Origin: Conexibacter sp.
Lineage (GTDB): Bacteria > Actinomycetota > Thermoleophilia > Solirubrobacterales > Solirubrobacteraceae
Reading direction: 5' to 3'
Assembly (NCBI GenBank): GCA_025964325.1
Contig: JAOPZA010000061.1
Span: 1-50,818, forward strand
Length of the DNA stretch: 50,818 nt
Made by a program: the position numbers and the translations under genes. Each line of letters starts with the position of its first letter. Position 1 is the first letter of the stretch. The notes below the pieces were generated by a model, which did no database searches, was not told the origin of the DNA, and saw only the letters and a list, made by a program, of their open reading frames with translations. Of the stretch, positions 23,891 through 43,551 are shown piece by piece.

Positions 23891-24682
23891 CTAGACGCGC
23901 CGAGCGAGGTAGTGCAGCTCGGGGCAGGAGGCAGCGTCGTCCCCGGCGGCCACCGGCCGGCCGTCGAGGTCGAGGCACTCGAGCAGCTCGAAGCCGCTCT
24001 CGCGCAGCTGGCGCTCCTGCGTGTCGCGCCCGATGTAGTAGTGGAGGACGGAGAAGTCATGGCCCTCGTCGGTCAGGATCGCGTACTCCGGCTCGACCCG
24101 CTGGAGCGGCAGCAGGCGCCGCCGGTTGCGAATGCGGCGCGGGAGGCGTACGAGCTCGCGGAGGACTCCGACCGGGCGGCGCGTGCGCACCCGCAGCTGT
24201 TCGCGGATGCGCGGCGCGTACGCGAGGTTGTGCGTCGACATCAGCAGCAGACCGTCCTCGGCGAGGAGACGATGCAGGTCGCCGAGGACACGGCGACGCT
24301 CGGCGTCGCCGAGCACGTCGAGCACGGCGTAGGAGGCGACGATCGCGTCGAACGATCGATCCCCATGCGCGGAGAGGTCGCGCAGGTCGCCGACGGCGAA
24401 GGTCCCGGCGGGATACGCGCGCCGGCAGTGCTCGACCATCGACGGCAGCACGTCGATCGCGTGAAACGCGCCGGCGAGCTCGACGAGGTAGCCGGTGAGG
24501 CGGCCGGCGCCGCATCCCAGCTCGAGCACGCGTCCTGAGAGCGCCTCGCGCCGGCGGATCAGTGCCATCACCTCGGGCGGCCGCAGCGTGCGGTCGGCAT
24601 AGTGCGAGACGAGGTCCTCGCGCGACCAGAGCGCGTCGTTGATGCGACGCTGCGGATCGGTGTCGGTCGCGTCCGCGCTCAT
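23891..24682 (-). CDS. Class I SAM-dependent methyltransferase
   Basis: 263 aa. SAM-binding motif I is VLELGCGAGRLTGYL (about 51-65), motif II AIDVLPSMVEHC, motif III FDAIVASYAVLDVLGD, then LLLMSTHN. The C-terminal half is Arg-rich and adds a small substrate domain. ATG overlaps the GH2 stop by 4 nt, so it is translationally coupled to the operon of the amino acid:carrier-protein ligase. That makes it a candidate tailoring enzyme of that pathway, acting on oxygen or nitrogen; inferred. Confidence 0.88.
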   Translation of the reverse strand: MSADATDTDPQRRINDALWSREDLVSHYADRTLRPPEVMALIRRREALSGRVLELGCGAGRLTGYLVELAGAFHAIDVLPSMVEHCRRAYPAGTFAVGDLRDLSAHGDRSFDAIVASYAVLDVLGDAERRRVLGDLHRLLAEDGLLLMSTHNLAYAPRIREQLRVRTRRPVGVLRELVRLPRRIRNRRRLLPLQRVEPEYAILTDEGHDFSVLHYYIGRDTQERQLRESGFELLECLDLDGRPVAAGDDAASCPELHYLARRV

Positions 24683-27348
24683 CGCGGCATCGTCTCAGAC
24701 TCGGGGGAGCTCGGGGCCAGGGCCTGCGGCGCGAACCCGCGCAGCTCGCGGTCGAGCGCGTCGCTCGCATCCTCCTGGATCGCGATTCGCTGGCGGCCCT
24801 GGAGGTTGAGCGCGGTCAGCGTGCCGGCGGGCGGCGGCAGCTCGTCTCCCGCCGGGCGCAGCGCCACCGTGCGGGTGGCGCCGGGCTCGAGCGTCAGCGC
24901 GTCGTCGCCCGGCAGGTACCCGGGGACGTGGATGCGCAGCCCGTACACGACCCGCGTCGCGCGCAGCTCGAGCAGGAGGCTGCCGTCCGGCGCTCGCCGG
25001 CCGTCGTTCTCGAGCCCGAGACGGTCGGCCGGCTCCTGGCGCAGCGGCCTGCCGGCCGGGAAGCGGAACGCCTGCGAGAGCAGCTCGGTGCCGCCCGCTC
25101 CGTCGCGCTCGAGGCTCGCCACGACCACGTCGTGGGCAGGCGGACCGAAGCGATACGCCCACGCGGCGTCGACGAACCGCCCGAGCAGCCCCTCCACGCT
25201 CCGACGCGTCGCGCTGTGAGCGTCCAACTCGATCGTCTCCGCCGCGGCGTCGACGCGGTGCTCGCCGTCGCGGTACAGCGCGACCCGCAGGCGCGCCACC
25301 AACCGCTCTGGACGATCGTTCGCGACGTGGACGTCGATTCCCCCGAGTCCCTCGTCGGTCGTCCACACCGCCACCGGCGCGAGCGCCCGGCGCAGGTGGT
25401 GATAGGCGACCTTCGGCGTGCCGGCCGCGTCGACGACGCCCCATCCGGCCCCGGGCGCGAGGTCCCGCAGCCAGAGGACGATGCCGCCGCCGCACGGCGA
25501 GCCGCTGCGGCGCCACTCGCCGAAGACCTCCGCCATCGCCTCACCCGTCACTGCCCGCGAGAGGTCGAGATAGCGCGCGTGGTCCACCCTCCGCAGCTCG
25601 CCGGGGTCGACGCCGAACAGCAGGGCGAGGTAGTGGTCGCGCACGTCGTCGAAGTCCCAGCCGCTGCCTGCGTCGCGCGGGACGCCGGCCTTCCAGCGCG
25701 GATGATGGACGACGACGTTCGCCGGGAGCTCGGGCATCAACGCTTCGACGCCCTCCTCGTCCGGCACGTTCGCGAACGCGAGGCATTCCGATGCGAAGCG
25801 CACGTCGGCGCGGCGCGCGTCCTCCAGCGGACGCCGGTAGCCGCCGACACCGTAGTAGTTGGCGACGCCGGCGCCGGGGCGGAACGGCAACTCGCCGCCG
25901 CACGGCGCGGACGGCACGTAGACGGCGTCCGTCGCAGCGCGCGACACCGCGCGTGGCAGCAGCTCGCCGAACAGCTCGCCGCGACCGAGCGCGGGATCGA
26001 GGCCGAGCATCGCGACCTGCTGCTCGATCTCGCTGTTGCCGCAGAACACGGCGACGCAGGGCCGGCCGGCGAGCGCGGCGAGCAGGTCGCGCGCCTCGTC
26101 CTCGACGGTCGCGCGGAAGCCGGCGTCGGCGACCGGGTAGTCGAGGTTGGCGAACATGAAGTCCTGCCACACGAGCAGGCCGAGCTCGTCGCACAGGTCG
26201 AAGAACGCCGGGCTCTCGTACGCGCTCGTCCCGGGCACGCGCAGCAGGTTCATGCCCGCGTCGCGCGCCTGTTCGAGCGCGGCGCGGAGTGAGGGCTCCG
26301 GCGGCGCGAGGCCGATCGGGTCGACCGGCGTCCAGACCGCGCCGCGTGCGAACACGCGGACGCCGTTGACGTGCAGGTCGAGCCCGTCGTGCTCGACGTC
26401 GTGGTCGGCCCGCGGCCCGGCGGCGAGCGAGCGGAAGCCGACGCGACCGGCATCGACCGACACCACCGTCCCATCGTCCGCAGCGACCTCGAGCACCACG
26501 TCGTGCAGGACCGGCGTCCCGTGCGTGTGCGGCCACCAGCGGGCGACCCGCGGCACGCGCAGCTCGCCGCTGAAGGTGACGGTGCCCGGACCGCGGGCCG
26601 TCGCGAGCAGCCCGCAGCGATGCGCACCCGACGGTCCCGCCAGCGCGACCTCGGCGGAGGTGATCGACCCGCCCTGCTCGCCTCCCGGGAGCGTGCGGAG
26701 CGTCGCCTCGACCGTCAGGAGACCGTCGTCCCGGTCGAGCCCTGCGTCCAGCGTCAACGCGTCGAGCGCCAGCCGTCGGCGGCGCTCGAGCCGCACCGGA
26801 CGCCACGGTCCGACGGCGGCCGGGCCGGGCGCGAAGCCGGGCGCCCGGCCGAGCAAGGCGGTCCGGAACCAGCGAAGGCTGCCGTCGGCGACGAGTCTGG
26901 TGCGCCAGCGCGCACGCGGCTTGCGGGGCGTGCGCAGCAGCGGCGCCAGCGCTCGGCAACGGATCGCGAGCTCGTTCTCACCTGCCAGCAGCGCGCCGAC
27001 GCCGACCTCGTGCGCGGCGAACATCGAGACGCTCTCGAGCACCCGTGTGCCGTTCAGGAAGACGTCCGCCACGGTCGCGATCCCGTCGAGCGCGAGCACC
27101 ACCTCCTCACCCGGCGTCGCCGCGGGCGCAGCGAAGCGGGTGCGGAACCACCAATCCTCCGCGTCCAGGTCGCTCGGCTCGCCGGGACGCCAGCGCCCGG
27201 CATCGTGGAGCGCCGCCGCCGCCGTCCCGGGGACGCGTGCCGCGAGCCAGTCGAGGCCGTCGAGATCGGCTGGGTCGACGTGGGCGTCGGGCGGGCAGGA
27301 CGTCGCCTCCCAGCCGGTCTCGAGTGCCCGGCGCTCGTGACCCCCCAC
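24679..27348 (-). CDS. Glycoside hydrolase family 2, beta-mannosidase-like
   Basis: Retaining glycosidase-like protein, 889 aa. Jelly-roll sugar-binding domain (to about 185), Ig-like domain (to about 330), TIM barrel (from about 335), C-terminal beta domains. The acid/base is probably Glu440 in FCGNSEIEQQ and the nucleophile Glu521 in FASECLAF; mannosidases usually read FVSEFG there, so the subsite differs. HHPRWKAG and LWLRDLAPGAGWGVVD follow. I prefer GTG 27348, since LETGWEATSCPPD just after it is the normal GH2 beginning; a TTG at 27396 overlapping the DUF1839 stop is an alternative. No signal peptide, so it is cytosolic, odd for a scavenging enzyme. It sits inside the aminoacyl-carrier operon. 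Confidence 0.87.
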   Translation of the reverse strand: MGGHERRALETGWEATSCPPDAHVDPADLDGLDWLAARVPGTAAAALHDAGRWRPGEPSDLDAEDWWFRTRFAAPAATPGEEVVLALDGIATVADVFLNGTRVLESVSMFAAHEVGVGALLAGENELAIRCRALAPLLRTPRKPRARWRTRLVADGSLRWFRTALLGRAPGFAPGPAAVGPWRPVRLERRRRLALDALTLDAGLDRDDGLLTVEATLRTLPGGEQGGSITSAEVALAGPSGAHRCGLLATARGPGTVTFSGELRVPRVARWWPHTHGTPVLHDVVLEVAADDGTVVSVDAGRVGFRSLAAGPRADHDVEHDGLDLHVNGVRVFARGAVWTPVDPIGLAPPEPSLRAALEQARDAGMNLLRVPGTSAYESPAFFDLCDELGLLVWQDFMFANLDYPVADAGFRATVEDEARDLLAALAGRPCVAVFCGNSEIEQQVAMLGLDPALGRGELFGELLPRAVSRAATDAVYVPSAPCGGELPFRPGAGVANYYGVGGYRRPLEDARRADVRFASECLAFANVPDEEGVEALMPELPANVVVHHPRWKAGVPRDAGSGWDFDDVRDHYLALLFGVDPGELRRVDHARYLDLSRAVTGEAMAEVFGEWRRSGSPCGGGIVLWLRDLAPGAGWGVVDAAGTPKVAYHHLRRALAPVAVWTTDEGLGGIDVHVANDRPERLVARLRVALYRDGEHRVDAAAETIELDAHSATRRSVEGLLGRFVDAAWAYRFGPPAHDVVVASLERDGAGGTELLSQAFRFPAGRPLRQEPADRLGLENDGRRAPDGSLLLELRATRVVYGLRIHVPGYLPGDDALTLEPGATRTVALRPAGDELPPPAGTLTALNLQGRQRIAIQEDASDALDRELRGFAPQALAPSSPESETMPR

Positions 27349-27388
27349 CGAGGCTCGCGGAGACGTCGAGGGCGAGCGGAGCCCGTGC

Positions 27389-28360
27389 TCAGACAACGGC
27401 GTCGCCGAGCGCCTCGAACGCTTCCTCCCAGGCGCTCGCAAGCTCCACGATCGCCGGCTCGGGGTCGAACGCGCGACGCCGCGCGAGCTTGAACGACAGC
27501 ACCTTGGAGCCGTCGACGATCCGACCCATCGCGGCCGCGGCGGGCGCGCCCGCCTCGCCCAGCAGCCAGTCGACGTGGGAGGCGCCGACCTCGAACGCCG
27601 AGCCGACCATCCGCACGGTTGCGAACGCGTAGTCGTGGTAGGCGGCGTGGTCGCCCTCGAGCAGCCGTGGCAGGTCGTCCGCCAGCTGCGCGCCGAAGCG
27701 CAGGAAGGGGTTCGGTGACGGCCGCCGCGCGAGGTTGCGCAGCAGCAGCTCGCGAGCGGCGCCACGCAGCTCCTCGCCGTGCAGGCGCGCGCCGGCGTCG
27801 AGCCGCACGAGCTCGGTGTAGGGCGGCAGGACGTCATCGGAGAAGGCACGGCCGAGGCGGAAGACCCCGCGGTAGTCTGCGCCCGCCAGCTCGTAGTACC
27901 CAGGACCGTGGAAGTAGCGCAGCCGCTCGCCCGCGAGGTCGATCGCCTCGGCGACGATGCTGCTCTTGACGTGCGCGGTGCGGTAGCTGGTGGCCGCGAC
28001 GTCGGGCAGGTAGAACGAGTCGAGCTCGACGATGATCGTGCGTCCCCGCTCGAGCTGCTCGGCGATCTGCTGCGGCAACGGCCGGTAGGGCTGCATCTCG
28101 TGCACGTCGATGCCGTAGAGCCGCTCCAGGTCCTCCGGCAGCGGCTTGAAGAACGTCCACTGGTCGCCCTCGAAGTCGACCCCCAGCACGCAGCCCATCG
28201 TCGCGAGCGGCTCGTCGCCGCGGGCGTGCAGGAGCTCGATCAGGATGTCCGTGTAGCAGTTGGTCTCCTGGTAGGCGCGCTCGGCGCCGTGCAGAAGGTG
28301 CTGGCGGTGGGTCGCCGGATCGAGCCCGAGCAGGCTGACGTAGCCCGTCGCCGTGCTCAT
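27389..28360 (-). CDS. DUF1839 family protein
   Basis: 323 aa, no signal or membrane segment. The sequence (QETNCYTDILIELLHARGDEP, CVLGVDFEGDQWTFFKPLP, DLERLYGIDVHEMQPYRPLP, IVELDSFYLPDVAATSYRTAHVKSSI) matches the DUF1839 pattern as I remember it. The family is known chiefly as a gene neighbour of amino acid:[carrier protein] ligases. EQLERGRTIIVELDSFYLPD followed by SYR...HVK has the look of a peptidase-like/BtrH-type N-terminal acyl-transfer fold, with Cys23-like and His residues, but that is a guess. ATG overlaps the ligase stop by 4 nt. Confidence 0.8.
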   Translation of the reverse strand: MSTATGYVSLLGLDPATHRQHLLHGAERAYQETNCYTDILIELLHARGDEPLATMGCVLGVDFEGDQWTFFKPLPEDLERLYGIDVHEMQPYRPLPQQIAEQLERGRTIIVELDSFYLPDVAATSYRTAHVKSSIVAEAIDLAGERLRYFHGPGYYELAGADYRGVFRLGRAFSDDVLPPYTELVRLDAGARLHGEELRGAARELLLRNLARRPSPNPFLRFGAQLADDLPRLLEGDHAAYHDYAFATVRMVGSAFEVGASHVDWLLGEAGAPAAAAMGRIVDGSKVLSFKLARRRAFDPEPAIVELASAWEEAFEALGDAVV

Positions 28361-29292
28361 GTCAGCTGCAGCCGCTCCAGCACCGGCTCCGGCCAGGCGT
28401 CGACCTCGAGCCCGTGCGCGTGCAGCAGCGCGAGCGTGATCCGCTCGAGCCCGAACCCGAGACAGGCGGTGTGCGCGGTCCCGCCGCCGTTCTCCATCGC
28501 GATGCCGTAGGTGCCCGTGAAGTGGTCCTGGTGGTAGTTGAAGGAGGCGACCGCGGTCGGCTCCGGCCCGGCGATCTGCACGCGCACCTCGAACTTCAGC
28601 GTCTGCGCCCGCTGGCTGCGCGCGAGCAGCTGGCCGGCGCGGCCGAAGAACGGGTCGTTCGCGACGTCGAAGTCGGCCTCCAGCCCGACGCTGCGCAGCA
28701 GCCCGACGGAGCGGTCGCGCCACGCATCGCGCCAGGCGGCCACCGTCTGCGGCTCGCCGATCCGCACGATCTCGCGCTGGTGGAACATCTGCAGCCGCGC
28801 GGGATCGCCGGAGGGCTCGTGGCGGAAGACGTACGACCCACCGGCGTCGACGGTCACGCCGCCGGGGGCGAGCGGGCCGCGCGCTGCGATCGCCGGGTAG
28901 ACGGGATAGCAAGCGGCGGGTGTCAGCACGAGCTCGGTCTGGGACTGGAACTCGCTCCAGTCGTCGTGCCGGCCGGCACGCTGCCCCTGCTCGGCCGCCT
29001 GCGCCTCGTCGCCCTCGAAGGAGAAGATCGCGCCGGCCAGGTGCGGGAACGACTTGAGGTAGCCGATCTGCTCGAGGTTGCGGCGCGGGAGCACCGGCGG
29101 GAACGCCATGTGCTCGGGTGCGTCGACGGCGCCCGTGCGTGTCACGAGCCCGTCGAACGCCCAACGCACGCGCTCGAACTCCGAGCCGCGGCCATAGACG
29201 CCCGACACCCCGCTGTCGATCAGCAGGCCGGCTGCGAGCAGCTCTTCGAGGAACGCCGCCTGGTCGGGGCTTCCGGGTTGGAACGCGGCCAT
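28357..29292 (-). CDS. Amino acid:[carrier protein] ligase (aaRS-like, class II)
   Basis: 311 aa, a truncated seryl-tRNA-synthetase-like catalytic core without the tRNA-binding arm. It adenylates an amino acid and transfers it to the phosphopantetheine thiol of a carrier protein (established for the Bradyrhizobium/Agrobacterium family by Mocibob and colleagues). Class II motif 2 FRHE (156-159) and motif 3 GFGLERI are present. Zn ligands are probably Cys128 (TPAACYP), Glu174 (FHQRE) and Cys277 (TACLGFG), nearly the same numbers as in the characterised enzymes, which prefer Gly or Ala. FPPVLPRRNLEQIGYLKSFPHL is a further family block. First complete gene of a coupled operon with DUF1839, GH2 and methyltransferase; the carrier is encoded at 33448. 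Confidence 0.92.
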   Translation of the reverse strand: MAAFQPGSPDQAAFLEELLAAGLLIDSGVSGVYGRGSEFERVRWAFDGLVTRTGAVDAPEHMAFPPVLPRRNLEQIGYLKSFPHLAGAIFSFEGDEAQAAEQGQRAGRHDDWSEFQSQTELVLTPAACYPVYPAIAARGPLAPGGVTVDAGGSYVFRHEPSGDPARLQMFHQREIVRIGEPQTVAAWRDAWRDRSVGLLRSVGLEADFDVANDPFFGRAGQLLARSQRAQTLKFEVRVQIAGPEPTAVASFNYHQDHFTGTYGIAMENGGGTAHTACLGFGLERITLALLHAHGLEVDAWPEPVLERLQLT

Positions 29293-29295
29293 CAG

Positions 29296-29388
29296 CTACG
29301 CGTCCGTCGCGATCGGCAGCCGACCCGTCGCGACCTCGCCGCTCGGACGTGCACCGTCCACGACGACTCTTCCGATCTCGTCATTCAT
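29296..29388 (-). pseudogene. Carrier-protein N-terminal fragment (30 codons) upstream of the ligase
   Basis: ATG 29388 to TAG 29296, in the ligase frame and 3 nt before its ATG. It begins MNDEI like the carrier at 33448, and the first 20 residues align with it (MNDEI, then I/V, I/V, E/D, AR, S, D/E, V), ending ...TDA-stop where the carrier continues DADLY. The DNA just upstream is also alike (GCCGATAC, C/T-rich 7-8 nt, ATGAA). I read it as a truncated copy of the carrier gene with its promoter, now serving as ligase leader. It is too short to carry the phosphopantetheine serine. Could instead be a short leader peptide. Confidence 0.5.
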
Positions 29389-29488
29389 AGAGAGGGGTAT
29401 CGGCCGCTCGCGGCCTTTCCTGCAGTCACGATCGACGAGGCGCAGCCGTGCTCGTGCGTCAAGCTGTCGGCACGTCGATCACGCGCGG

Positions 29489-31567
29489 CTAGCGGACGAC
29501 TCTGACGGTGCGCGACGTCGCGGTCGTCACGTTGCCGGCGGCGTCGCGCGCCCGTGCGGTGATCAGGAGGGGACCGACGGGCGTGCTGGAGGAGTCCCAG
29601 TCGAAGCTGTAGGGAGCCGTCGTGTCGATGCCGACCGTCTCGCCGTCGACGACGAAGTCGACCCGGCTCACGCCGACGTTGTCGCTCGCCGTGGCCTGCA
29701 GCGACACGGTCCCCGATACCTGCGCGCCGGCGGCCGGGGACGTCAGCGCGACGGTCGGCGGGCCTGTGTCGGGTCTGATCGCCAGCACCTGTGCGGCCGT
29801 TCTGACTTGGACGTCGGGTCGCGCGGCGATCCAGGTCAGGAGCGCGTCGAGCGTGGCGACGTCGACGGTGTAGTCGTCGGCGCCGGTGCAGGCGCCGGTG
29901 CACAGGTCGTGCAGCACGATGTTGACCGATCCACCGCCCGTGTCGCGGGCGCGTTGGATGACGTCCTCGAAGGTGGCCAGCGGCGTCGTGAACCGCGGCT
30001 CCCAGGCACGCAGCGCGAAGGCGTTCCGCGGCGGGGTCGTCTCGGCGTAGACGCAGCAGGGGTCGGGATAGTCCGTGCCGCCCGTCGTCCGCGCCGACGT
30101 GTAGCCGCAGCCGGCGGCGACGCCCTGCACGCCCGCGTTCGAGGCGCCGAACGGATATGCGAAGTCGGTCACGGCCAGCCCGTGACTCAACAGCGTCGTC
30201 CGGTCGTCGCAGATCTGGTGCTGCTGCTCAGCCGCGGAGACTGCGGTCAGCATCGCGTGGTCGACGGTGTGGCCGCCGATCTCGTGCCCCTCGGTCTGCA
30301 TCTGCGTCAGCTGCGCCCACGTCACGTATCCGGGCTGGCCGACGTGTCCGCTGTTCGCGAAGAAGGTCGCGTGGACGCCGTGATCGCTGAGCACGCCGCG
30401 GTTCGCGTATTGCGACGCGAGGCCGTCGTCGAAGCCGAGGGTCACGTACGTCAGCGGCCCCGTCGGGGCGGGCGGTGCGAGGACGGTGACGGTGCGCGCT
30501 GCCGACACCGTCGCGTTCCCGGCTCTGTCGGTCGCGCGCGCCGTGATCGTCGCGGACGCTCCGGCTCTCGACGCGTCCCACGCGACGGTGTACGGCGCGG
30601 TCGTCGTGCTGCCCACCACGGTGCCGGCGACGAGGAAGTCGACTCTCGCGACGCCGACGTCGTCGCTCGCGTCCGCGCTCAGCGTCACGGGCCCGGGTGC
30701 CACGGTCGATCTGTCGACGGGCGCGGTCAGCGCCACTGTCGGCGGCGATCTGTCGGGGACGGGGGCGGGCGGGGAGGTCGAGAAGGCTTGGGCCGTCGAA
30801 CGGACCTGCACGTCGGGCAGCGTGGCGATCCAGTCGAGCAGGCCGGAGAGGGTCGCGGTGCTGATCGCGTCGCTTCCGGCCCCGGCGCAGGTGCCGGTGC
30901 AGATGTCGTGGAGGACCAGGTCGAACACGCCACCGCCGCCGTTGCGCGCGGCGTTGATCGCGTCTTGGTAGACCGACAGCGGCGTGGAGAGCTGAGGCTG
31001 GATCGCCCGCAGTGCCCTCGCGTCGCGCGGCGGGACGGTCTCGGCGTAGACGCAGCAGGGGTCCGGGTAGTCGAGGCCGCCGGCGGTGCGGGCCGTGTCG
31101 TAGCCGCAGCCGGCGAGGACCGCCTTGACCGCGGCGTTCGTCTGCCCCCCGGGATACGCGAAGTTGCGGACGGTCAGGCTGTGGCTCTGGAGCGCGGTGC
31201 GGTCGTCGCAGGCCTGGTGCTGCTGCTGGGCGGTCGTCAGCGGGGGCAGCGCCACGCGGTCGACGCCGTTGGAGCCGATCTCGTGCCCGTCCGCCTGCAG
31301 CTGCGTCAGCTGCGCCCACGTCATGTAGCCCGCTCTGCCGACCTTCCCGCTGCTGACGAAGAACGTCGCGTGCACCCCGCGATTGGTCAGGACGGCGCGG
31401 TTCGCGTACTGCGACGCGAGCCCGCCGTCGAAGCCGAGCACGACGGAGGTCGTCGCCGCCTGGGCGGCCGTGGCGCCGACCAGCGTGATCACGAGCGCGA
31501 GCAACGCCACGCGTAGTGAAAATCGCGCGTGCGGAGTGGCATCCTGCCGGCGGCCTGACGATCGCAT
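29489..31567 (-). CDS. Secreted double polysaccharide deacetylase with Ig-like domains; first domain degenerate
   Basis: 692 aa. Signal peptide 1-37 (ALLALVITLVGATAAQA). Order: NodB-like domain 1 (about 40-262), Ig-like (about 272-363), NodB-like domain 2 (about 373-590), Ig-like (about 600-692). Domain 2 has the metal/catalytic set D380-D381 and H433...H437 (GGHTVDH). Domain 1 has G48 for the second Asp and N100/R104 for the two His (GSNGVDR), so it should be inactive and may bind glycan. ATG 31567 has GAGGAA 6 nt upstream; the ATG at 31594 has none. Ig linkers have the DNVGV.RVDF.V.G..VG form. AGA is frequent. Probably trims acetyl groups from extracellular polysaccharide. Confidence 0.88.
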   Translation of the reverse strand: MRSSGRRQDATPHARFSLRVALLALVITLVGATAAQAATTSVVLGFDGGLASQYANRAVLTNRGVHATFFVSSGKVGRAGYMTWAQLTQLQADGHEIGSNGVDRVALPPLTTAQQQHQACDDRTALQSHSLTVRNFAYPGGQTNAAVKAVLAGCGYDTARTAGGLDYPDPCCVYAETVPPRDARALRAIQPQLSTPLSVYQDAINAARNGGGGVFDLVLHDICTGTCAGAGSDAISTATLSGLLDWIATLPDVQVRSTAQAFSTSPPAPVPDRSPPTVALTAPVDRSTVAPGPVTLSADASDDVGVARVDFLVAGTVVGSTTTAPYTVAWDASRAGASATITARATDRAGNATVSAARTVTVLAPPAPTGPLTYVTLGFDDGLASQYANRGVLSDHGVHATFFANSGHVGQPGYVTWAQLTQMQTEGHEIGGHTVDHAMLTAVSAAEQQHQICDDRTTLLSHGLAVTDFAYPFGASNAGVQGVAAGCGYTSARTTGGTDYPDPCCVYAETTPPRNAFALRAWEPRFTTPLATFEDVIQRARDTGGGSVNIVLHDLCTGACTGADDYTVDVATLDALLTWIAARPDVQVRTAAQVLAIRPDTGPPTVALTSPAAGAQVSGTVSLQATASDNVGVSRVDFVVDGETVGIDTTAPYSFDWDSSSTPVGPLLITARARDAAGNVTTATSRTVRVVR

Positions 31568-31598
31568 CGGTCGTTCCTCGATCGGGGTGCGCATCGGT

Positions 31599-31645
31599 GC
31601 GTACCCGAGTCCAACGCTCCAGATCGAGGATGGTAGCGGGTACGC
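31599..31645. promoter_or_regulatory. 9-bp inverted repeat in the divergent deacetylase/membrane-protein gap
   Basis: GCGTACCCG (31599-31607) and CGGGTACGC (31637-31645), 29 nt apart, centred in the 114-bp divergent gap. A TACCAT -10 candidate for the deacetylase (complement of 31630-31635) overlaps it. It may be a paired operator controlling both genes; no direct evidence. Confidence 0.3.
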
Positions 31646-31681
31646 GACACCGGCGCTCGTCGAACTTGGCAGACTCGCGGC

Positions 31682-33025
31682 GTGCACGCAGCCGACGACA
31701 TCGATGACTGCGGCGACCGGACGGGATCCTCCTGGGGCGGTCGCCGGGCCGCCGCGCTCAACCGACCGCTGTCGTGGGGACCGGCCGTGATGATCGTGAC
31801 GGCGCTGATGGCCGCCCTCGCCGCGACCAACCGTTGGATGAGCTGGGCGCACGGCTTCGTCTACGCGCACGCCGACGACGAGAACGCGTACCTCGTCATC
31901 GCGCGCGCCTCGCCACACCTGCCGGCCGGGCGGATCGCCGACCAGCACGCCCAGCGCTGGCCGCTCCATTGGCTGATCGGCGCCGTCGCCGACCTGACGG
32001 GCTGGCAGCTCGAGCTCCTCTACCGCTACGCGGCGATCGCGCTGGCGATCGCCGTCTGCCTGATGCTCGCCGCGGTCCTGATCCGGTTGGGGGCGAGCGT
32101 CGCGACGGGCGCCGTCTGCCTCGCGGCCTTCGCCTGCAATCCCTACGCGCTGCGGTACTACGCGCTCGCGCCCGGATACCTCGACGACCTCGTCTTCGAC
32201 CTGGCGCTCGGCGTCCTGCTGCTCGGACTCCTCGCGCGGCGGCTTCCCCTCGTGCTGGGGGGCCTCGTGCTCGGCCTGCTCGCGCGTCAGACGATGCTGC
32301 CGGTCGCATCCGTCGTCGCGCTGTGGATCGGGCTGTCGCCCGCGTGGCGCAGCGGAGGCGTGCGCGCGCGCCTGAGCCGCGCCGGCGCGGCGCTCGTGGT
32401 CGCGATCGCCGTCTACCTCGTCGTCACGCGCGTCGCGAGCGGCTTCTCGGAGGCGGGAGCGCCCTTCGGACGGCTGACGATCCTCGACACCGTCGAGCAG
32501 CTGCCCGGCAGCGCGCACGACCTGCTCAACCATTTCGCGCACGTCGTGAACGGTCTGCTGGCGGTTGCCGCGCTGCTCGCCGCGACGCTGCTCTCGACCC
32601 GGTTCCGCGATCTCTCCTGGTCGTTCTGGGGGCCTCTCGCGATCGGGCTCGTGATCGTGCTGCAGGCGGCGGCACTCAACCCCGACCCCGTCTTCAACGA
32701 CTACAACTCGACGAACGAGCCGCGGCTCGTCGCCCCCGCGCTCGTTGCGTTCGCCGTCGCGTTGGCCGGTGCTCGCAGCGGCGCCGCGCGTTCGCGCGTA
32801 CGTCCGCTGGGCGACTCGCCCGTGGTCGTGACGCTCGCGCTCGCGCTGCTGGCGATCGGCTCGCTGCACCACACCTACACGTCGATCTCGACGGGCGGGA
32901 AGGGCGTCACGCTCGCGCTCGAGCTCGCCGTCGCGCTGGCGCTGTTCGTGCTCGTCCTGCGCTGGGACCGCAGCGGCCGCGCCGGCGGCCCGCACGACGC
33001 CGTCGCCGTGCGGTCAGGCGCCTGA
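31682..33025 (+). CDS. Polytopic membrane protein, possible GT-C-like glycosyltransferase
   Basis: 447 aa with about ten membrane segments beginning near residue 35 (AVMIVTALMAALAATNRW). A long extracytoplasmic first loop (FVYAHADDENAYLVIARASPHLPAGR...QRWPLHWLIG) contains acidic residues placed like the catalytic Asp/Glu of GT-C enzymes, but I cannot name the family. GTG 31682 is taken; ATG 31790 would remove the cytoplasmic tail. It is 22 bp upstream of acpS on the same strand and so is probably cotranscribed with the carrier-protein genes. Confidence 0.6.
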   Translation: MHAADDIDDCGDRTGSSWGGRRAAALNRPLSWGPAVMIVTALMAALAATNRWMSWAHGFVYAHADDENAYLVIARASPHLPAGRIADQHAQRWPLHWLIGAVADLTGWQLELLYRYAAIALAIAVCLMLAAVLIRLGASVATGAVCLAAFACNPYALRYYALAPGYLDDLVFDLALGVLLLGLLARRLPLVLGGLVLGLLARQTMLPVASVVALWIGLSPAWRSGGVRARLSRAGAALVVAIAVYLVVTRVASGFSEAGAPFGRLTILDTVEQLPGSAHDLLNHFAHVVNGLLAVAALLAATLLSTRFRDLSWSFWGPLAIGLVIVLQAAALNPDPVFNDYNSTNEPRLVAPALVAFAVALAGARSGAARSRVRPLGDSPVVVTLALALLAIGSLHHTYTSISTGGKGVTLALELAVALALFVLVLRWDRSGRAGGPHDAVAVRSGA

Positions 33026-33047
33026 CGCTCTGCGATGCTTTCCGGCG

Positions 33048-33458
33048 ATGGGGCTGCGCGTCGGCATCGATCTCGTCGCCGTCGCCGATATCGAGGCGTC
33101 GCTCAGAGCCCACGGCGAACGCTACCTGCGGCGCGTGTTCACCTCGCGCGAGGTCGAGGACTCGCGGACGGGCGAGCAGATCTCGGCGGAGCGCCTCGCG
33201 GCTCGCTTCGCCGCGAAGGAGGCGGCGATGAAGACGCTGCGGATCGGCGACGACGCGCTGTCGTGGCACGACATCGAGGTGCGTCGGGAAGCGGGCGGGT
33301 GGGTCGAGCTGGCGCTGCATGGCCGCGCGGCGGAGCTGGCCGCGGCGGCTGGCGTGATCGAGCTCGCCGTCAGCCTCACGCACGAGGGCGGATACGCATC
33401 TGCGGTCGTCGTTGCAGAAATCCGCTCGCCGAGCCGATACTCCCCGCATGAACGATGA
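33048..33458 (+). CDS. acpS: Holo-[acyl-carrier-protein] synthase
   Basis: 136 aa, normal AcpS length. It transfers 4'-phosphopantetheine from CoA to a carrier-protein serine. Mg/CoA ligands Asp8 (VGIDLV) and Glu58 (RFAAKEAAMKTL) are in place, and SLTHEGGYASAVVV is the C-terminal strand pair. It overlaps the carrier gene by 11 nt, so it is probably dedicated to that carrier, although it may also be the cell's general AcpS. Confidence 0.92.
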   Translation: MGLRVGIDLVAVADIEASLRAHGERYLRRVFTSREVEDSRTGEQISAERLAARFAAKEAAMKTLRIGDDALSWHDIEVRREAGGWVELALHGRAAELAAAAGVIELAVSLTHEGGYASAVVVAEIRSPSRYSPHER

Positions 33459-33693
33459 GATCCGCACCATCATCCGCGAGCACGCCCGCCTGTCGGTGGA
33501 CGTGGACTCGCTCTCCGACGACGCCGACCTCTACCAGGCGGGGATGACCTCGCACGCGAGCGTGAACCTGATGCTGGCGCTGGAGGACGGCTTCGACATC
33601 GAGTTCCCCGACAGCATGCTGAAGCGAAGCGTGTTCGAGAGCGTCGCCGCGATCGCGGCTGCCCTGGGCGAGCTCCGACGAGCGGCCGCGTGA
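33448..33693 (+). CDS. Carrier protein (aminoacyl carrier) of the ligase system
   Basis: 81-aa acidic four-helix carrier. Phosphopantetheine attaches to Ser35 in DLYQAGMTSHASVNLMLALE, and FDIEFPDSMLKRSVFESV is the third-helix block typical of carriers partnered with amino acid:CP ligases; fatty-acid ACPs read DSLD at the serine. ATG 33448 begins the MNDEI start and lies inside the end of acpS. The stop overlaps the next start (GTGA). Amino acid attached by the ligase at 28357 would be carried here as a thioester and processed by the next two proteins; inferred from family and order. Confidence 0.9.
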   Translation: MNDEIRTIIREHARLSVDVDSLSDDADLYQAGMTSHASVNLMLALEDGFDIEFPDSMLKRSVFESVAAIAAALGELRRAAA

Positions 33694-34862
33694 GCGTCGC
33701 GACGGATCGCGACGGGCTCTTCCTCGCCGCGGTTCGCGCGATCGCCGACGACGTCGCAGGACCGCTCGCCGACGAGGTCGACCGCGACGCCCGCTTCCCC
33801 GTCGAGACCGTCGACGCCCTGCGCGCACAGGGGCTGCTGTCGGCCTTCGTCCCGGAGGAGCTGGGCGGCGCCGGCGTCTCGTTCGACGCGCTCGCGACCG
33901 CCTGCTTCGAGCTCGGCCGGCGTTGCGGGGCAAGCGCGATGGTCTTCGCGATGCACCAGATCCAGGTCGCGACGATCGTGCGCCACCTCGACGACGCGCC
34001 CTGGTTCGAGGGCTACCTGCGGGAGCTCGGCGAGCAGCAGCGACTGATCGCGTCGGTCACCTCCGAGGTCGGGACGGGCGGCGACATGGCCCGCTCGATC
34101 GCAGCCGTGACACCGGCCGGCGACGGGCGTGCGACGTTCGAGAAGCAGGCGCCGACGGTCTCCTACGGCCGCTACGCCGACGACCTGCTGACGACGCTGC
34201 GCCGCTCGCCCGAGGCCGAGCCCGGCGACCAGGTCTGCGTGCTCACGCGCGGCGAGCAGCACGCGCTCGAGCCGACCGGCACGTGGGATCCGCTCGGGAT
34301 GCGCGGGACGTGCTCGCCCGGCAACATCGTGCGCGCCGAGTTCCCAGTCGAGCAGATCCTTCCGACCGGGTTCGCGAAGGTCATGAACGAGTCGATGGTG
34401 CCGATCTCGCACATCCTGTGGTCCCACCTGTGGCTCGGCATCGCGAGCGACGCCTTCGCTCGCGCCCGCGCCTTCGTGCGCGCGGCGGCGAGACGGAAGC
34501 CCGGCGAGCCGCTGCCGGCTGCGATCCGCCTCTCGGAGCTGATGAGCGAGCTGTCGCTGCTGCGGGCCGAGGTCTCCTCGGGCCTGCGGGAGTTCGTCGA
34601 CGCCTCCGCCGAGGATCGCACGCGCCTGTCCCAGATGGCGACGATCCTGCGCTTCAACAACCTCAAGATCGCCGCCTCCGAGCAGACGCCGCGCGTCTGC
34701 CAGGCCGCCCTCGGCGTCTGCGGGATCGTCGGCTTCAAGAACGACACGCCGTTCAGCGTCGGACGGCACGTGCGCGACTCGCTGTCGGCTTCGCTGATGG
34801 TCGCGAACGAGCGCATCCACCAGACCAACGCGACGCTCCTGCTGATCGCGAAGGACGTCTGA
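33690..34862 (+). CDS. Acyl-CoA dehydrogenase-like protein, presumed to act on a carrier-bound thioester
   Basis: 390 aa with the three-domain acyl-CoA dehydrogenase fold: N-terminal helices (FVPEELGGAGVSFDALATACFELGR), mid beta domain (ASVTSEVGTGGD, GTWDPLGMRGTCS) and C-terminal helices (FNNLKIAASEQTPRVCQAALGVCG). FAD contacts look conserved. At the usual catalytic-Glu site near the C-terminus (YEGT..IQR in family members) it reads VANERIHQTN, so the base is displaced or absent. GTG 33690 overlaps the carrier stop, hence coupled. It probably oxidises, or merely binds, the aminoacyl thioester. Confidence 0.87.
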   Translation: MSVATDRDGLFLAAVRAIADDVAGPLADEVDRDARFPVETVDALRAQGLLSAFVPEELGGAGVSFDALATACFELGRRCGASAMVFAMHQIQVATIVRHLDDAPWFEGYLRELGEQQRLIASVTSEVGTGGDMARSIAAVTPAGDGRATFEKQAPTVSYGRYADDLLTTLRRSPEAEPGDQVCVLTRGEQHALEPTGTWDPLGMRGTCSPGNIVRAEFPVEQILPTGFAKVMNESMVPISHILWSHLWLGIASDAFARARAFVRAAARRKPGEPLPAAIRLSELMSELSLLRAEVSSGLREFVDASAEDRTRLSQMATILRFNNLKIAASEQTPRVCQAALGVCGIVGFKNDTPFSVGRHVRDSLSASLMVANERIHQTNATLLLIAKDV

Positions 34863-34963
34863 CGATGGCGGAGCTCCGGCCCCGTCGGGGACGCGACGCA
34901 GGCGGCCGAGCAGCAGGAGCCCGCATCGCGCCACGGCGGCTTCGGGAGACCGCGGCGCGCCGG

Positions 34964-34969
34964 TAGAGT
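34964..34969 (+). promoter_or_regulatory. -10 element for the double hydrolase gene
   Basis: TAGAGT, 6 nt before ATG 34976, no Shine-Dalgarno; suggests a separate leaderless transcript after the 113-bp gap that follows the dehydrogenase-like gene. That gap holds no other gene I can support. Confidence 0.5.
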
Positions 34970-34975
34970 GGCCGG

Positions 34976-36775
34976 ATGCCAGACCCTCCCGCGCAACGGG
35001 CCTGCTACCTGACCACTGCGCGTGGGCCGGTCTTCGCGCTGCTCCATCCGGCTGCGCGCCCGTGCGGGATCGGCGTCGTGCTCTGCGCACCGTTCGGCAA
35101 CGACGATCTCTGCTCCTATCGCAGCCGCCGCGAGTGGGCCGAGCAGCTCGCCGCCGCCGGCCATCCGACCGTGCGGCTGGACCTGCCCGGGACGGGCAAC
35201 AGCGCCGGCGACGCGCACGACGACGACCTGCTGGAGGCGTGGACCGACGCGATCGCGGCCGCCGCCGCGTGGCTGCGCGAGCAGAGCGGATGTCCGCGCG
35301 TCGCCGCGGTCGGGATCGGCCTCGGCGGGCTGCTGGCCTACCGAGCCGTCGCGCTCGGCGCTGCGATCGACGACCTCGCGCTGTGGGCGACGCCGGCCCG
35401 CGGCCGCACGTTCGTGCGCGAGCTGCACGCCCTCGCGCGGATGGAGGCGTCCGCCGCGAGCGCGACGGAGCCCGGCGAGGAGGCGGCCGAGTCGGATGGC
35501 GAGATGGCGAGCGCGGGCTTCGTCCTCAGCGCGCAGACGCTGGCGGCGCTCGAGGCCGTCGACCTCGGCCAGCTGCCGCTGCCCGCGCCGGCGGGCCGGC
35601 GTGTCCTGCAGCTCGAGCGCGACGGGATCGCGCCCGACGCACGCCTCCGGCGCGCGCTCGCGGCTACCGACGTGGAGCTGACGCTTGCCGCTGGCCCCGG
35701 CTACGGCGCGATGGTCACGGCTCCGCAACGCTCGCAGATGCCGGCCGAGGTGGTCGAGACCGTGATCGCGTGGCTGGGGCACTCCGCGCCCGCGCCCGTG
35801 ATCGCGGGACCGGCGCCGCCGGCGGCGGCGCCGACGGCGCCCGTCGCCAGCCTGTCGGTCGACGGCGCGCCGATCCGGGAGACGCCGATCACCGTCGCGC
35901 TCGAGCGGGGCGCCCTCTTCGGCGTGCTGAGCGAGCCGCTCGACGAGACGGCGCCGATCTGCGCCGTGCTGCTGAGCGCCGGCGCGGTGCGCCACATCGG
36001 ACCGAATCGGATGTGGGTGGAGCTCGCGCGCCGCTGGGCCGCGGACGGCGTGCCGACGCTACGGGTCGACCTGGCCGGGATCGGAGACGCGGACGGCGAG
36101 GGGTATCCGATGCACGAGGACGGGAGCTTCCACGCCACGCGCTTCGTCGACCAGGTCGGCGCGATCCTCGACACGCTGGCCGCGCGGGGGCTGCCGCAGC
36201 GCTTCGTCCTCGGCGGCCTCTGCTCCGGCGCCTATCTCGCCTTCCATGCCGCCCAGCGCGACGAGCGCGTGGCCGCCGCGCTGATGGTCAACCCGCGCAC
36301 CCTCTTCTGGTCGCGGCGGCTCGACCGCGTGCGCGACGCGCGCGACGTCCGCAAGATCCGCCGGCTCGAGACGTGGCGCAAGCTGATCCGCGGCGACATC
36401 AGCCGCGCCCGCCGGCAGGAGATCTGGCGCGGCATCGCAGCGGCCGTGTCCGCGCTGCCGAGCGAGCTGCGCGAGCGCCGACGACGGGGGCGGGCCGGCG
36501 ACCCGCTCGAGGACGCGCTCGACGCGCTCGAGCGCAACGCGACCCGGCTCGTGGCCGTCTTCACGGCCGGCGAGCCGTTGCTCGAGGAGATGCAGCGCGA
36601 CGGTCGGCTGGAGCGCATCCGGCGTCGGAGCATGCGCGTCGAGTGCATCCCCGGTGCGCTGATCTCGCACACGCTCGAGCCGCTTCCGTTGCAGCGGGCC
36701 GTCGCGGCCGTGCTCGACGAGGAGATCGCGCACGAGCTGGAGCGCGCTGCGCCGCTCGCGCCCCAGATCATCTAG
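34976..36775 (+). CDS. Tandem alpha/beta-hydrolase protein with altered nucleophiles
   Basis: 599 aa, two S33-like alpha/beta-hydrolase domains (about 10-270 and 310-590) joined by a Pro/Ala linker. The nucleophile elbow of domain 1 is VGIGLGG, with Gly115 where Ser belongs, so it is inactive. Domain 2 has GLCSG with Cys416. Acid/His candidates in domain 2 include the Asp in the AVFTAGEPLL region and His in LISHTLEPLPLQ. Domain 2 looks like hydrolases found in surface-polysaccharide and exosortase-type loci (RVDLAGIGDADG, GGLCSGAYLAFHAA, VNPRTLFW). A Cys nucleophile next to a carrier protein would suit acyl or aminoacyl transfer more than hydrolysis; inferred. Convergent with the flippase gene, overlapping by 4 nt. 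Confidence 0.85.
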   Translation: MPDPPAQRACYLTTARGPVFALLHPAARPCGIGVVLCAPFGNDDLCSYRSRREWAEQLAAAGHPTVRLDLPGTGNSAGDAHDDDLLEAWTDAIAAAAAWLREQSGCPRVAAVGIGLGGLLAYRAVALGAAIDDLALWATPARGRTFVRELHALARMEASAASATEPGEEAAESDGEMASAGFVLSAQTLAALEAVDLGQLPLPAPAGRRVLQLERDGIAPDARLRRALAATDVELTLAAGPGYGAMVTAPQRSQMPAEVVETVIAWLGHSAPAPVIAGPAPPAAAPTAPVASLSVDGAPIRETPITVALERGALFGVLSEPLDETAPICAVLLSAGAVRHIGPNRMWVELARRWAADGVPTLRVDLAGIGDADGEGYPMHEDGSFHATRFVDQVGAILDTLAARGLPQRFVLGGLCSGAYLAFHAAQRDERVAAALMVNPRTLFWSRRLDRVRDARDVRKIRRLETWRKLIRGDISRARRQEIWRGIAAAVSALPSELRERRRRGRAGDPLEDALDALERNATRLVAVFTAGEPLLEEMQRDGRLERIRRRSMRVECIPGALISHTLEPLPLQRAVAAVLDEEIAHELERAAPLAPQII

Positions 36776-38461: not shown

Positions 38462-39166
38462 GTGGTGGACGCCATCTCACGCATCGCACGCGCAAGGCGC
38501 ACACGCGGTCCTTGGGGCGCCGCACGCGTCGCGCTCGAGCGCGTGAAGCCGCGCCCGCGTTTCGCCGCCGACTACGTCTGGTTCCTCCTCGACCTCACGC
38601 AGGACACGCGGCCCAGACCGGCCCTGCCCGACGGGTTCGAGCTGCGCGCCGGCACGCTCGGGGACCTCGCCGCGATCCAGGAGCTCGACCACGAGCTGGT
38701 CTCGACGATGACGAAGCGTCTGATGCGCGATCGGCTCGCGCGCGGCGCGACGCCGTGGCTCGTCGTCGCCCCCGACGGCCGCCTCGCGTGTTACACCTGG
38801 TCCTTCGAGGGCTCGCTCCCGGTGCACGGCGACCATCGCCTGACGCTGCCGGACGGCGTCGTGGGCTTCGAGGACGCCGTCACCTCCGCCGCCTTCCGCG
38901 GTCGCCGGATCGCTCCCGCGACGTGGTCGGCGGTGGGGACCCGCCTCGTCGAGCGCGGCGCCTACGCGATCGTCGGCAGAGTCGACGTCCTCAACGAGTC
39001 ATCCGCGCGCGCCTGTGGTGCGGCCGGCTACGTCGAGCGCGCGAGGATGCGCGTCGTCTGGCGAGACTGGCGGATCCTCGTCCAGGTCGCGCTGCCGCCC
39101 GGGGACGAGTCGCACGCGTGGCTGCGCGACGTGAAGCGCGCAGGCCCGCGGCTTCGGCGCTGCTAG
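38462..39166 (+). CDS. GNAT-family N-acetyltransferase (paralogue of the one at 23009)
   Basis: 234 aa from GTG 38462. A TATGGT -10 candidate lies at 38446-38451 and overlaps the more upstream ATG 38447, so I prefer the downstream GTG (38462 or 38465) as a leaderless start. GNAT core: SAAFRGRRIAPATW (acetyl-CoA loop) and ESSARACGAAGYVERARMRVVWRDW. Similar across its length to the protein at 23009. It is followed at 11 bp by the epimerase gene. Target unknown. Confidence 0.83.
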   Translation: MVDAISRIARARRTRGPWGAARVALERVKPRPRFAADYVWFLLDLTQDTRPRPALPDGFELRAGTLGDLAAIQELDHELVSTMTKRLMRDRLARGATPWLVVAPDGRLACYTWSFEGSLPVHGDHRLTLPDGVVGFEDAVTSAAFRGRRIAPATWSAVGTRLVERGAYAIVGRVDVLNESSARACGAAGYVERARMRVVWRDWRILVQVALPPGDESHAWLRDVKRAGPRLRRC

Positions 39167-39169
39167 GGT
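39164..39169 (+). promoter_or_regulatory. -10 element for epimerase gene
   Basis: TAGGGT, 8 nt before GTG 39178 and overlapping the previous stop codon; no Shine-Dalgarno. Confidence 0.4.
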
Positions 39170-39177
39170 GCCGCGAC

Positions 39178-40107
39178 GTGAAGGCGCTCGTCACCGGCGG
39201 AGCCGGGTTCATCGGTAGCAACGTCGTGGACGGGCTCGTGGACGCCGGCCACGACGTGGCCGTCGTCGACAACCTCTCGACCGGTCGGCGAGCGAACCTG
39301 CCGGACGGCATCGCGCTGCACGAGGTCGACGTCGTCGACGGGTCGGCGATCGAGACCGCGTTCGCGGCCGAACGGCCCGACGTCGTCTTCCACCTCGCGG
39401 CGCACATCGACGTCCGGCGCTCGGTCGAGGACCCCGGCCATGACGCGCGCGTCAACGTCGAGGGAACGATCAACGTGCTCCGCGCCGCGCATCGGAGCGG
39501 CGCGCGCCGCGTCATCTTCTCCTCCACCGGCGGAGCGATCTACGGCGACGCCGAGGCCGTCCCGACCGGCGAGGACGCGCCGATCCGCCCGCTCGCGCCC
39601 TACGGGGCCTCCAAGCATGCGGCAGAGGGCTACCTGGCGCTGTTCGCCTCGCTGCACGGGCTCTCGACGATCGCGCTGCGCTACGCCAACGTCTACGGAC
39701 CGCGGCAGGACCCGCTCGGCGAGGGAGGCGTCGTCGCGATCTACTGCGGCGCGCTCGCGAGCGGCGCGACGGCGATCGTCTACGGCGACGGCGAGCAGAC
39801 GCGCGACTACGTCTACGTCGGCGACGTGGTGCGCGCGAACCTGCTCGCCGCCGAGTCGGCGGCGACCGGCTCGTTCAACGTCGGCAGCGGCGTCGAGACG
39901 ACCGTGCTCGAGCTGGCCGAGCGCCTACGCGAGCTCGGCGACGGCGCCGACTTCGTCCCGCGCCATGCACCCGAGCGCGCCGGCGAGGTTCGCCGCAGCT
40001 GCCTCGACGCGACCCGCGCGCGGTCGGCGATCGGCTGGCAGCCGCAGGTCGAGCTGGCCGAGGGCCTGCGTCGGACGCTCGCGCACGTCGCCGCCGGCAT
40101 GCGCTGA
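39178..40107 (+). CDS. NAD-dependent nucleotide-sugar epimerase/dehydratase (extended SDR, GalE-like)
   Basis: 309 aa. TGGAGFIGSNVVDGL at the N-terminus binds NAD; FHLAAHIDVRRSVEDP, the SSTGGAIYG strand and the catalytic YGASK (Tyr-xxx-Lys) are intact; RYANVYGPRQDP and YGDGEQTRDYVYVGDV are typical of UDP-glucose 4-epimerase-like proteins. GTG 39178 starts directly at the Rossmann strand. It would interconvert UDP-hexoses for the exopolysaccharide genes downstream; exact substrate not readable. Confidence 0.92.
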   Translation: MKALVTGGAGFIGSNVVDGLVDAGHDVAVVDNLSTGRRANLPDGIALHEVDVVDGSAIETAFAAERPDVVFHLAAHIDVRRSVEDPGHDARVNVEGTINVLRAAHRSGARRVIFSSTGGAIYGDAEAVPTGEDAPIRPLAPYGASKHAAEGYLALFASLHGLSTIALRYANVYGPRQDPLGEGGVVAIYCGALASGATAIVYGDGEQTRDYVYVGDVVRANLLAAESAATGSFNVGSGVETTVLELAERLRELGDGADFVPRHAPERAGEVRRSCLDATRARSAIGWQPQVELAEGLRRTLAHVAAGMR

Positions 40108-43492: not shown

Positions 43493-43551
43493 TCGCACGC
43501 GCCTCCCACCCAGGGGTGAAGGAACGACCGAGATCTGCCGATGATGCTCGA

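Follow-up and report, generated by a model that had tools for sequence, protein, structure and literature searches.

DUF1839 as a candidate aminoacyl transferase in a conserved amino acid:[carrier protein] ligase cassette of Conexibacter

The purpose of amino acid:[carrier protein] ligases has been in question since 2010, and a 2022 review calls their role unknown (PMC9437257). The question is raised again by a locus of Conexibacter sp., where the window (the whole stretch of DNA analysed, 50,818 nucleotides) harbours such a ligase next to a DUF1839 gene. The original prediction, whose gene coordinates proved correct, held that the ligase charges a carrier rather than tRNA and that the aminoacyl group is oxidised there or passed on to a sugar or lipid. 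Computational analysis of the locus suggests a tRNA-independent aminoacyl-transfer cassette, in which a carrier is loaded, the amino acid is probably oxidised and DUF1839 transfers it to an amine, likely that of an amino sugar or glycoside; we give this reading an even chance of being correct.

Gene order and core members of the cassette

The relevant genes form two groups, a ligase side and a carrier side, about 4 kb apart (Table 1). In relatives the order is continuous, running AcpS, carrier, oxidoreductase, ligase, DUF1839, GH2 and double hydrolase, and the contiguous cassette is also found on plasmids of Alpha- and Betaproteobacteria. What the window shows as two groups is a single operon that has come apart in this genome.

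Table 1. Genes of the cassette and those lying between its two halves.
Feature	Coordinates	Strand	Basis or remark
SAM methyltransferase, frequent accessory member in Thermoleophilia	23891..24682	-	overlaps GH2 end
GH2 beta-mannosidase-like glycosidase	24679..27396	-	start TTG 27396 or GTG 27348
DUF1839, predicted carrier-dependent aminoacyl (amide) transferase, nucleophile Cys35	27389..28360	-	PF08893, predicted fold
Amino acid:[carrier protein] ligase, SerRS-like class II catalytic domain, lacking tRNA-binding domain	28357..29292	-	NF005479
Polysaccharide deacetylase, two deacetylase domains plus Ig repeats; not part of the cassette	29489..31600	-	Pfam; between cassette halves
Predicted membrane protein; not part of the cassette	31682..33025	+	between cassette halves
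AcpS-type phosphopantetheinyl transferase	33048..33458	+	TIGR00516, above cut-off
Dedicated aminoacyl carrier protein, Ser35 in GMTS	33448..33693	+	NF005480
Acyl-CoA-dehydrogenase-like flavoprotein, predicted oxidiser of carrier-bound amino acid	33690..34862	+	Pfam Acyl-CoA_dh_N
Double alpha/beta hydrolase	34976..36775	+	TIGR03101- and TIGR03100-like, below cut-off

Co-occurrence was determined over 31 loci that have both ligase and DUF1839, the window included. Carrier and oxidoreductase were present in all 31, GH2 in 29 (adjoining DUF1839 in 27 of these) and an AcpS homologue in 14; the neighbours that had been said to recur are conserved across phyla, and GH2 is a core member of the cassette. 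The flippase, GNAT and deacetylase genes, which had also been counted as parts, fared less well in the same set: homologues of the deacetylase (0 of the 30 other loci) and of GNAT were confined to the window, and the flippase was found in one further locus. The membrane protein between the two halves likewise had no homologue in the 30 other loci, and a Pfam search with it gave no match. These four genes do not belong to the set. Homologues of the SAM methyltransferase occur in the cassettes of several relatives, with its best NCBIfam matches below cut-off.

The ligase (311 aa) scored 390 bits against NF005479 (curated NCBIfam cut-off, 357) and the carrier 116 bits against NF005480 (cut-off, 72), with Bll0957 (E 2e-73) and Atu2571 (E 8e-18), respectively, as the closest solved structures. 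By family assignment, these scores favour, as originally predicted, a ligase that needs no tRNA and has a carrier of its own; of archaeal SerRS, its alignment covers the catalytic part alone. The Zn ligands that had been named, C128, E174 and C277, are conserved in at least 90% of 39 sequences, as are the class II motif 2 and 3 residues (R157/E159 and G281/E283/R284). The carrier-recognition helix of the ligase was dropped as an identifier of its carrier, being by eye about equally like both solved versions. On the carrier side the genes are tightly packed, the carrier starting (ATG at 33448) 11 bp inside AcpS and the flavoprotein gene overlapping the carrier stop by 4 bp.

The flavoprotein matched Acyl-CoA_dh_N at 60.5 bits, and solved acyl-CoA dehydrogenases and nitrososynthases matched it about equally. 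The MCAD-type catalytic Glu (IYEGT) is missing, with Val or Ile in that column in 28 of 28 sequences; canonical alpha,beta-dehydrogenation is therefore not favoured. A near-invariant His241 lies, by eye only, close to the position of the isovaleryl-type alternative Glu. Among the remaining members, the catalytic acid/base and nucleophile Glu of GH2 (E461 and E542) were found in 17 of 17 sequences and PDB beta-mannosidases matched it at E of about 1e-46 to 3e-48, while the double hydrolase carries Cys416/His565 in its second half and no nucleophile in its first (motifs over 20 sequences; model).

Amino acid loading onto a carrier that is weakly similar to DltC, with envelope genes nearby, could also point to a system like D-alanylation (Dlt), where the carrier would donate the amino acid to a polymer of the cell wall by ester formation. 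However, a DltB-type membrane acyltransferase was not recognised in the cassette and the ligase differs from a DltA-type adenylation domain, so that we consider this explanation very improbable.

Fold and active site of DUF1839

DUF1839 (315 bits against PF08893) is the candidate for the transfer step. That its gene is coupled to that of the ligase, as noted originally, was confirmed by a 4-bp overlap with the ligase stop; moreover, DUF1839 was always accompanied by the ligase (24 of 24 genomes, among 146), with gaps of 27–81 bp between profile matches. In several loci lacking DUF1839, an ATP-grasp ligase takes its place.

The predicted model of DUF1839 (pLDDT 85.6) matched CcbD, AziU3 and CtaG, which are cysteine-protease-fold enzymes from antibiotic pathways, with Z of 16.7–19.3 over 269–287 of 323 residues. 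The match was best for CcbD (Z 19.3 over 284 residues), followed by AziU3 (Z 19.0) and CtaG (Z 18.2); the next unrelated row was at Z 8.0. This structural match, made with a predicted model, is what is new in the present analysis, and it lends support to the originally proposed transfer of a carrier-bound aminoacyl group. A fold search in the viral library gave no match at E 0.001 or better. Searching the PDB with a DUF1839 sequence profile brought up neither CcbD, AziU3 nor CtaG, and no other convincing match; the link to these enzymes thus rests on the predicted structure together with a weak BtrH_N profile signal (hhalign P 0.0015, versus no value under 0.16 among 20 column shuffles). Against Pfam BtrH_N itself DUF1839 scored 12.4 bits, far under the gathering cut-off of 29.7.

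C35, H130 and H151 of DUF1839 are conserved (23 sequences), and C35 was aligned to the BtrH Cys by hhalign. In the alignment S/T133 falls at or beside the usual His position, the place of the Asp is taken by H151, and a Cys-His-Asp/Glu triad in the BtrH/CcbD order is absent. The Ser/Thr and His thus seem to be swapped relative to the CcbD type, a swap also stated elsewhere (PMC10318531). With His apparently at the position of the third residue and Ser/Thr at that of the usual His, the chemistry may differ; DUF1839 may therefore work like CcbD, yet it is not filed as a BtrH/CcbD-type member.

A peptidase or amidase role was guessed for DUF1839 in 2023 from genome context, its fold being described as papain-like and its site as C-(S/T)-H (PMC10318531); the protein would then act on cell-wall material and take up no acyl group from a carrier. 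Papain-like proteins are indeed among the fold matches, as a lower tier (Z 6–7), whereas the carrier-dependent enzymes match far better and over nearly the full length (Z about 19), and the strict coupling to ligase and carrier also speaks against such a role, which we therefore hold to be hardly probable. For the transfer reading, the nature of the matched enzymes is not uniformly favourable: AziU3 is a ring-forming enzyme and not an amide synthase despite the shared fold, which counts against amide transfer by DUF1839.

Proposed route and its surroundings

For the organism itself we infer the following steps, the oxidation, acceptor and product among them: (i) AcpS, or an enzyme of the cell's own, would convert the carrier to its holo form; (ii) the SerRS-like ligase would activate a small amino acid with ATP and load it onto the carrier phosphopantetheine (characterised relatives of the ligase use Gly or Ala); (iii) the flavoprotein would probably oxidise the amino acid on the carrier; (iv) Cys35 of DUF1839 would accept the acyl group and pass it to the amine of an acceptor, with amide formation of the kind that CcbD catalyses in the celesticetin pathway (an amino sugar or a glycoside is the most likely acceptor, and it may belong to a surface glycan); (v) GH2 would trim or release sugar; (vi) the double hydrolase, via Cys416, would edit stalled thioesters or make a second transfer. 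The gene identities, the operon, the conserved catalytic residues and the fold match behind this proposal come directly from the computation.

The alphaproteobacterial plasmids had suggested a self-contained cassette with no link to glycan genes, an idea that was abandoned after a test in Thermoleophilia and inspection of the Cupriavidus and Burkholderia loci. Glycosyltransferase-type genes were enriched around the cassettes of Thermoleophilia, the class to which the window belongs (10 of 18 loci versus 4 of 51 background stretches, with two seed loci left out, a background from four genomes and loci that are not independent), and they adjoin the cassette in Cupriavidus and Burkholderia. The description of the surroundings as a polysaccharide locus is thus supported in part: it fits these groups, but around six alphaproteobacterial plasmid copies neither glycosyltransferase nor sugar-biosynthesis genes were found; nor does the cassette contain a constant sugar-biosynthesis or glycosyltransferase gene across loci.

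The same loci bear on whether the product is instead a small secreted natural product, such as an antibiotic- or signal-like amide or a modified amino acid, with no decoration of surface glycans. All three nearest folds of DUF1839 come from antibiotic pathways, occurrence is sporadic (33 of the 146 genomes of the family), the plasmid copies are compact with unrelated flanks, and a drug exporter lies directly upstream of the cassette in Phyllobacterium; furthermore, a PKS/NRPS-like cluster contains distantly related ligases, and in Priestia a related carrier-oxidoreductase-ligase trio is found with alanine racemase and D-Ala ligase. On the other hand, the Thermoleophilia enrichment, the EPS genes beside the Cupriavidus copy (ManC, Wzc and WcaJ-like), the almost constant GH2 glycosidase and the lack of a constant exporter or regulator argue against a secreted product, which we regard as possible, if doubtful. 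In the most specific form of the aminoacyl-transfer reading, offered tentatively and in our judgement rather unlikely, a translation-derived ligase and a swapped-site cysteine transferase would together, and without tRNA, attach an oxidised amino acid to amino sugars, whether these belong to surface glycans or to glycosides.

Were an oxidised amino acid indeed attached to amino sugars in this way, these ligases would have a first known purpose, and the glycan modification would be new. DUF1839 now gives the cassette a likely transfer enzyme. If it does remove the amino acid from the carrier, four or five small proteins would suffice to rebuild the pathway, and the acceptor could be screened directly; a relative of genetic-code enzymes would then also be linked to glycan or natural-product chemistry.

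Relation to known systems

The nearest characterised counterpart is Bll0957 of Bradyrhizobium japonicum with its carrier, which shares the ligase family, the Zn ligands, the lack of a tRNA-binding domain and a dedicated carrier; the closest solved relative of the window's carrier is Atu2571 of Agrobacterium. In the window, unlike in these systems, an insertion separates the ligase from carrier and oxidoreductase. The halves of the double hydrolase resemble the exosortase A system-associated hydrolases 2 and 1 (TIGR03101 and TIGR03100), yet here they are fused and under both hydrolase 1/2 cut-offs (101 versus 203 and 83 versus 168 bits), and exosortase genes were not seen in the cassette.

For DUF1839, the butirosin acyltransferase BtrH offers weak profile similarity and an aligned catalytic Cys, but the triad order differs and DUF1839 is below the Pfam cut-off. 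The lincosamide condensing enzymes CcbD and LmbD share with it a near full-length predicted fold, an N-terminal catalytic Cys and a carrier-bound amino acid donor; CcbD uses a Cys-His-Glu ping-pong mechanism to place proline from its carrier on an amino sugar (PMC12945683). Identity is 13%, however, and the Ser/Thr and His are apparently swapped in DUF1839; moreover, loading is by an aaRS-like ligase in the cassette and by an NRPS A-domain in the CcbD/LmbD systems.

A neighbourhood of SerRS-like, Atu2574, redox and glycosidase genes was predicted in a 2010 note added in proof, along with the transfer of an amino acid to the amine of a cell-surface sugar (PMC2922099). It appears to be the same cassette with the same core idea, and Atu2574, judged from gene order, should be DUF1839. 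The 2010 text offered neither a fold nor an active site nor statistics, whereas here the conserved ORF is structurally matched to carrier-dependent enzymes.

Cassette architecture in the window and its relatives

All the genes named in the original prediction were found at correct coordinates on the contig (50,818 bases), which belongs to a draft genome of 4.3 Mb whose closest relatives are Thermoleophilia/Solirubrobacterales MAGs. In profile searches, both the ligase and the carrier surpassed the curated NCBIfam cut-offs, and the DUF1839 gene was an unambiguous family match. The ligase (311 aa) matched Bll0957 over ~305 residues (E 2e-73), while archaeal SerRS aligned with its catalytic part only; the proposed zinc ligands Cys128, Glu174 and Cys277 are conserved across 39 sequences. 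The genes are tightly packed: the carrier starts (ATG) 11 bp inside AcpS, the oxidoreductase 4 bp ahead of the carrier end, and DUF1839 overlaps the ligase by 4 bp.

In Solirubrobacterales MAGs, the genes run in one direction as AcpS-carrier-oxidoreductase-ligase-DUF1839-GH2-(methyltransferase)-double hydrolase. Among 31 loci having ligase and DUF1839, carrier and oxidoreductase were present in all and GH2 in 29, making GH2 a core member that lies beyond the interval first proposed. Some loci, such as L013, L014 and L016, lack genes because the contig stops there, so hydrolase counts are lower bounds. Since the oxidoreductase adjoins the ligase in 29 of the 31 loci, that is, in all except the window and a two-ligase genome in which the best match falls on the other copy, the 4-kb separation in the window is a rearrangement of what is one operon in relatives. 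Between the two now divergent halves lie a deacetylase and a membrane protein gene, neither with a homologue in the 30 other loci. The deacetylase protein carries two polysaccharide deacetylase domains plus Big_7 repeats, and only this genome's copy of the locus has it.

Features of the window (strand where given)
Feature	Position	Strand
Nucleotide-sugar dehydrogenase	21758-23008	
GH2	24679 to about 27396	
DUF1839	27389-28360	-
Amino acid:[carrier protein] ligase	28357-29292	-
Deacetylase	29489-31600	
Membrane protein	31682-33025	
Carrier	33448-33693	+
Oxidoreductase (acyl-CoA-dehydrogenase-like)	33690-34862	+
Double alpha/beta hydrolase	34976-36775	+
Sugar epimerase	39166-40107	
GT4	43396-44760	
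O-antigen-ligase-like	46376-47773	

Distribution and variant loci

That the neighbours are conserved together was borne out by these MAGs and by plasmids of six proteobacterial genera (Phyllobacterium, Azospirillum, Rhizobium, Shinella, Mycetohabitans and Caballeronia), where gene order is identical, the Caballeronia copy being without a hydrolase nearby. Within the window's family, the ligase occurs in 33 and DUF1839 in 24 of 146 genomes, and all 24 DUF1839 genomes have the ligase (formal probability 2e-20, which overstates independence as the genomes are related). The 25 DUF1839 copies lie 27-81 bp from a ligase, measured between profile matches.

Some ligase loci without DUF1839 (L011, L058, L059 and L064) harbour an ATP-grasp ligase, mostly with an esterase, and the Priestia locus has a dapdiamide-synthase-like ATP-grasp enzyme. 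ATP-grasp enzymes of this type make amide bonds; their presence where DUF1839 is absent would fit an amide-forming step for DUF1839. The former four loci form a second cassette type of carrier, ligase, double hydrolase and ATP-grasp ligase, to which most of them add a divergent oxidoreductase.

More distant arrangements were also seen. The Priestia aryabhattai plasmid p-LAD4 (L037) carries AcpS-carrier-oxidoreductase-ligase near an ATP-grasp ligase, hydrolase, exporter, alanine permease, alanine racemase and D-Ala-D-Ala ligase, an arrangement suggestive of a cluster that makes an antimetabolite derived from alanine and confers self-resistance. On a Streptomyces sp. NBC_00557 plasmid (L039), a distant ligase homologue adjoins carrier, ACAD, 3-hydroxyacyl-CoA dehydrogenase, acyltransferase and ketosynthase genes, a set resembling aminomalonyl-carrier supply in a PKS/NRPS cluster. 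Small Apilactobacillus kunkeei plasmids (L040) pair another such homologue with an aminotransferase and two annotated D-Ala-D-Ala ligase genes.

Glycan context and acceptor

Seeds for the context profiles came from the colanic acid cluster of E. coli and from local sequences; the window and L018, as sources of seeds, were excluded from the count. Glycosyltransferase, flippase or priming-transferase genes occur at 10 of 18 Thermoleophilia loci versus 4 of 51 background stretches (Fisher P 8e-5, with background from four genomes and phylogenetically non-independent loci). A priming transferase, ManC and Wzc adjoin the Cupriavidus copy, and similar genes the Burkholderia copy. The same profiles found no such genes around the copies in the six plasmid-bearing genera, although public annotation places single polysaccharide-type genes 7-10 kb from the Shinella and one Azospirillum copy. 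Polysaccharide genes are present in the window too: the dehydrogenase, epimerase, GT4 and O-antigen-ligase-like genes tabulated above, together with a flippase. With glycan genes near some copies and none by profile near others, the acceptor may be either a surface glycan or a small molecule.

That such ligases load a carrier is established (Mocibob 2010, 2013, as cited in PMC9437257, a paper that calls their role unknown). In 2010, a note added in proof (PMC2922099) predicted that Atu2574, a conserved neighbour, attaches the amino acid to an amine group on a cell-surface sugar, the aminoacyl group being modified by the redox enzyme. The oxidation or transfer first proposed for the window therefore repeats a published prediction. 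Against the open-licence literature searched, the present analysis adds the structural match of DUF1839, residue conservation, statistics, and both the full extent of the operon and its disruption in this genome.

Candidate roles of the cassette enzymes

For the oxidoreductase, acyl-CoA dehydrogenases are about as good a match as amino-sugar N-oxygenases (ORF36-type nitrososynthase 3mxl, DnmZ, 3m9v/4kcf). Val or Ile stands in place of the MCAD-type Glu in 28 of 28 sequences, which disfavours simple alpha,beta-dehydrogenation. Prolyl-ACP dehydrogenase 4irn is among the structure matches, so the fold is able to act on carrier-bound amino acids. GH2 is beta-mannosidase-like with both Glu kept. 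The double hydrolase is modelled as two alpha/beta-hydrolase domains, the halves resembling exosortase-associated hydrolases 2 and 1 at scores below cut-off; where a nucleophilic Ser or Cys would be expected, the first has Gly or Arg, and the second has a GxCxG motif with Cys416 plus conserved His565.

The predicted DUF1839 structure (built from 12 sequences; pLDDT 85.6, pTM 0.87) matched CcbD (Z 19.3, 284 residues, 13% identity), AziU3 (Z 19.0) and CtaG (Z 18.2) over nearly its entire length, the best unrelated match after them scoring Z 8.0. Sequence comparison by itself gave no more than a hint: BtrH_N scored 12.4 bits, and profile-profile comparison gave P 0.0015, against at least 0.16 for 20 column shuffles. 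In the profile-profile alignment the BtrH Cys aligns with Cys35, while Ser/Thr133 and His151 lie close to where His and Asp normally stand. The papain-like fold and this His/third-residue swap were already described in PMC10318531, which guessed a cell-wall role and makes no mention of CcbD, AziU3 or CtaG.

CcbD is a ping-pong enzyme that transfers carrier-bound proline to a sugar amino group and binds its carrier through arginines near the C terminus (PMC12945683). A region of DUF1839 that may be comparable contains R294, which is invariant, and R295, which is conserved, with K286 as well in close relatives. Compared with the Cys-His-Glu of CcbD, DUF1839 appears to have Ser/Thr and His swapped; as it departs by alignment from this defining feature, it is not filed as a CcbD-family member, but it may act in a CcbD-like manner.
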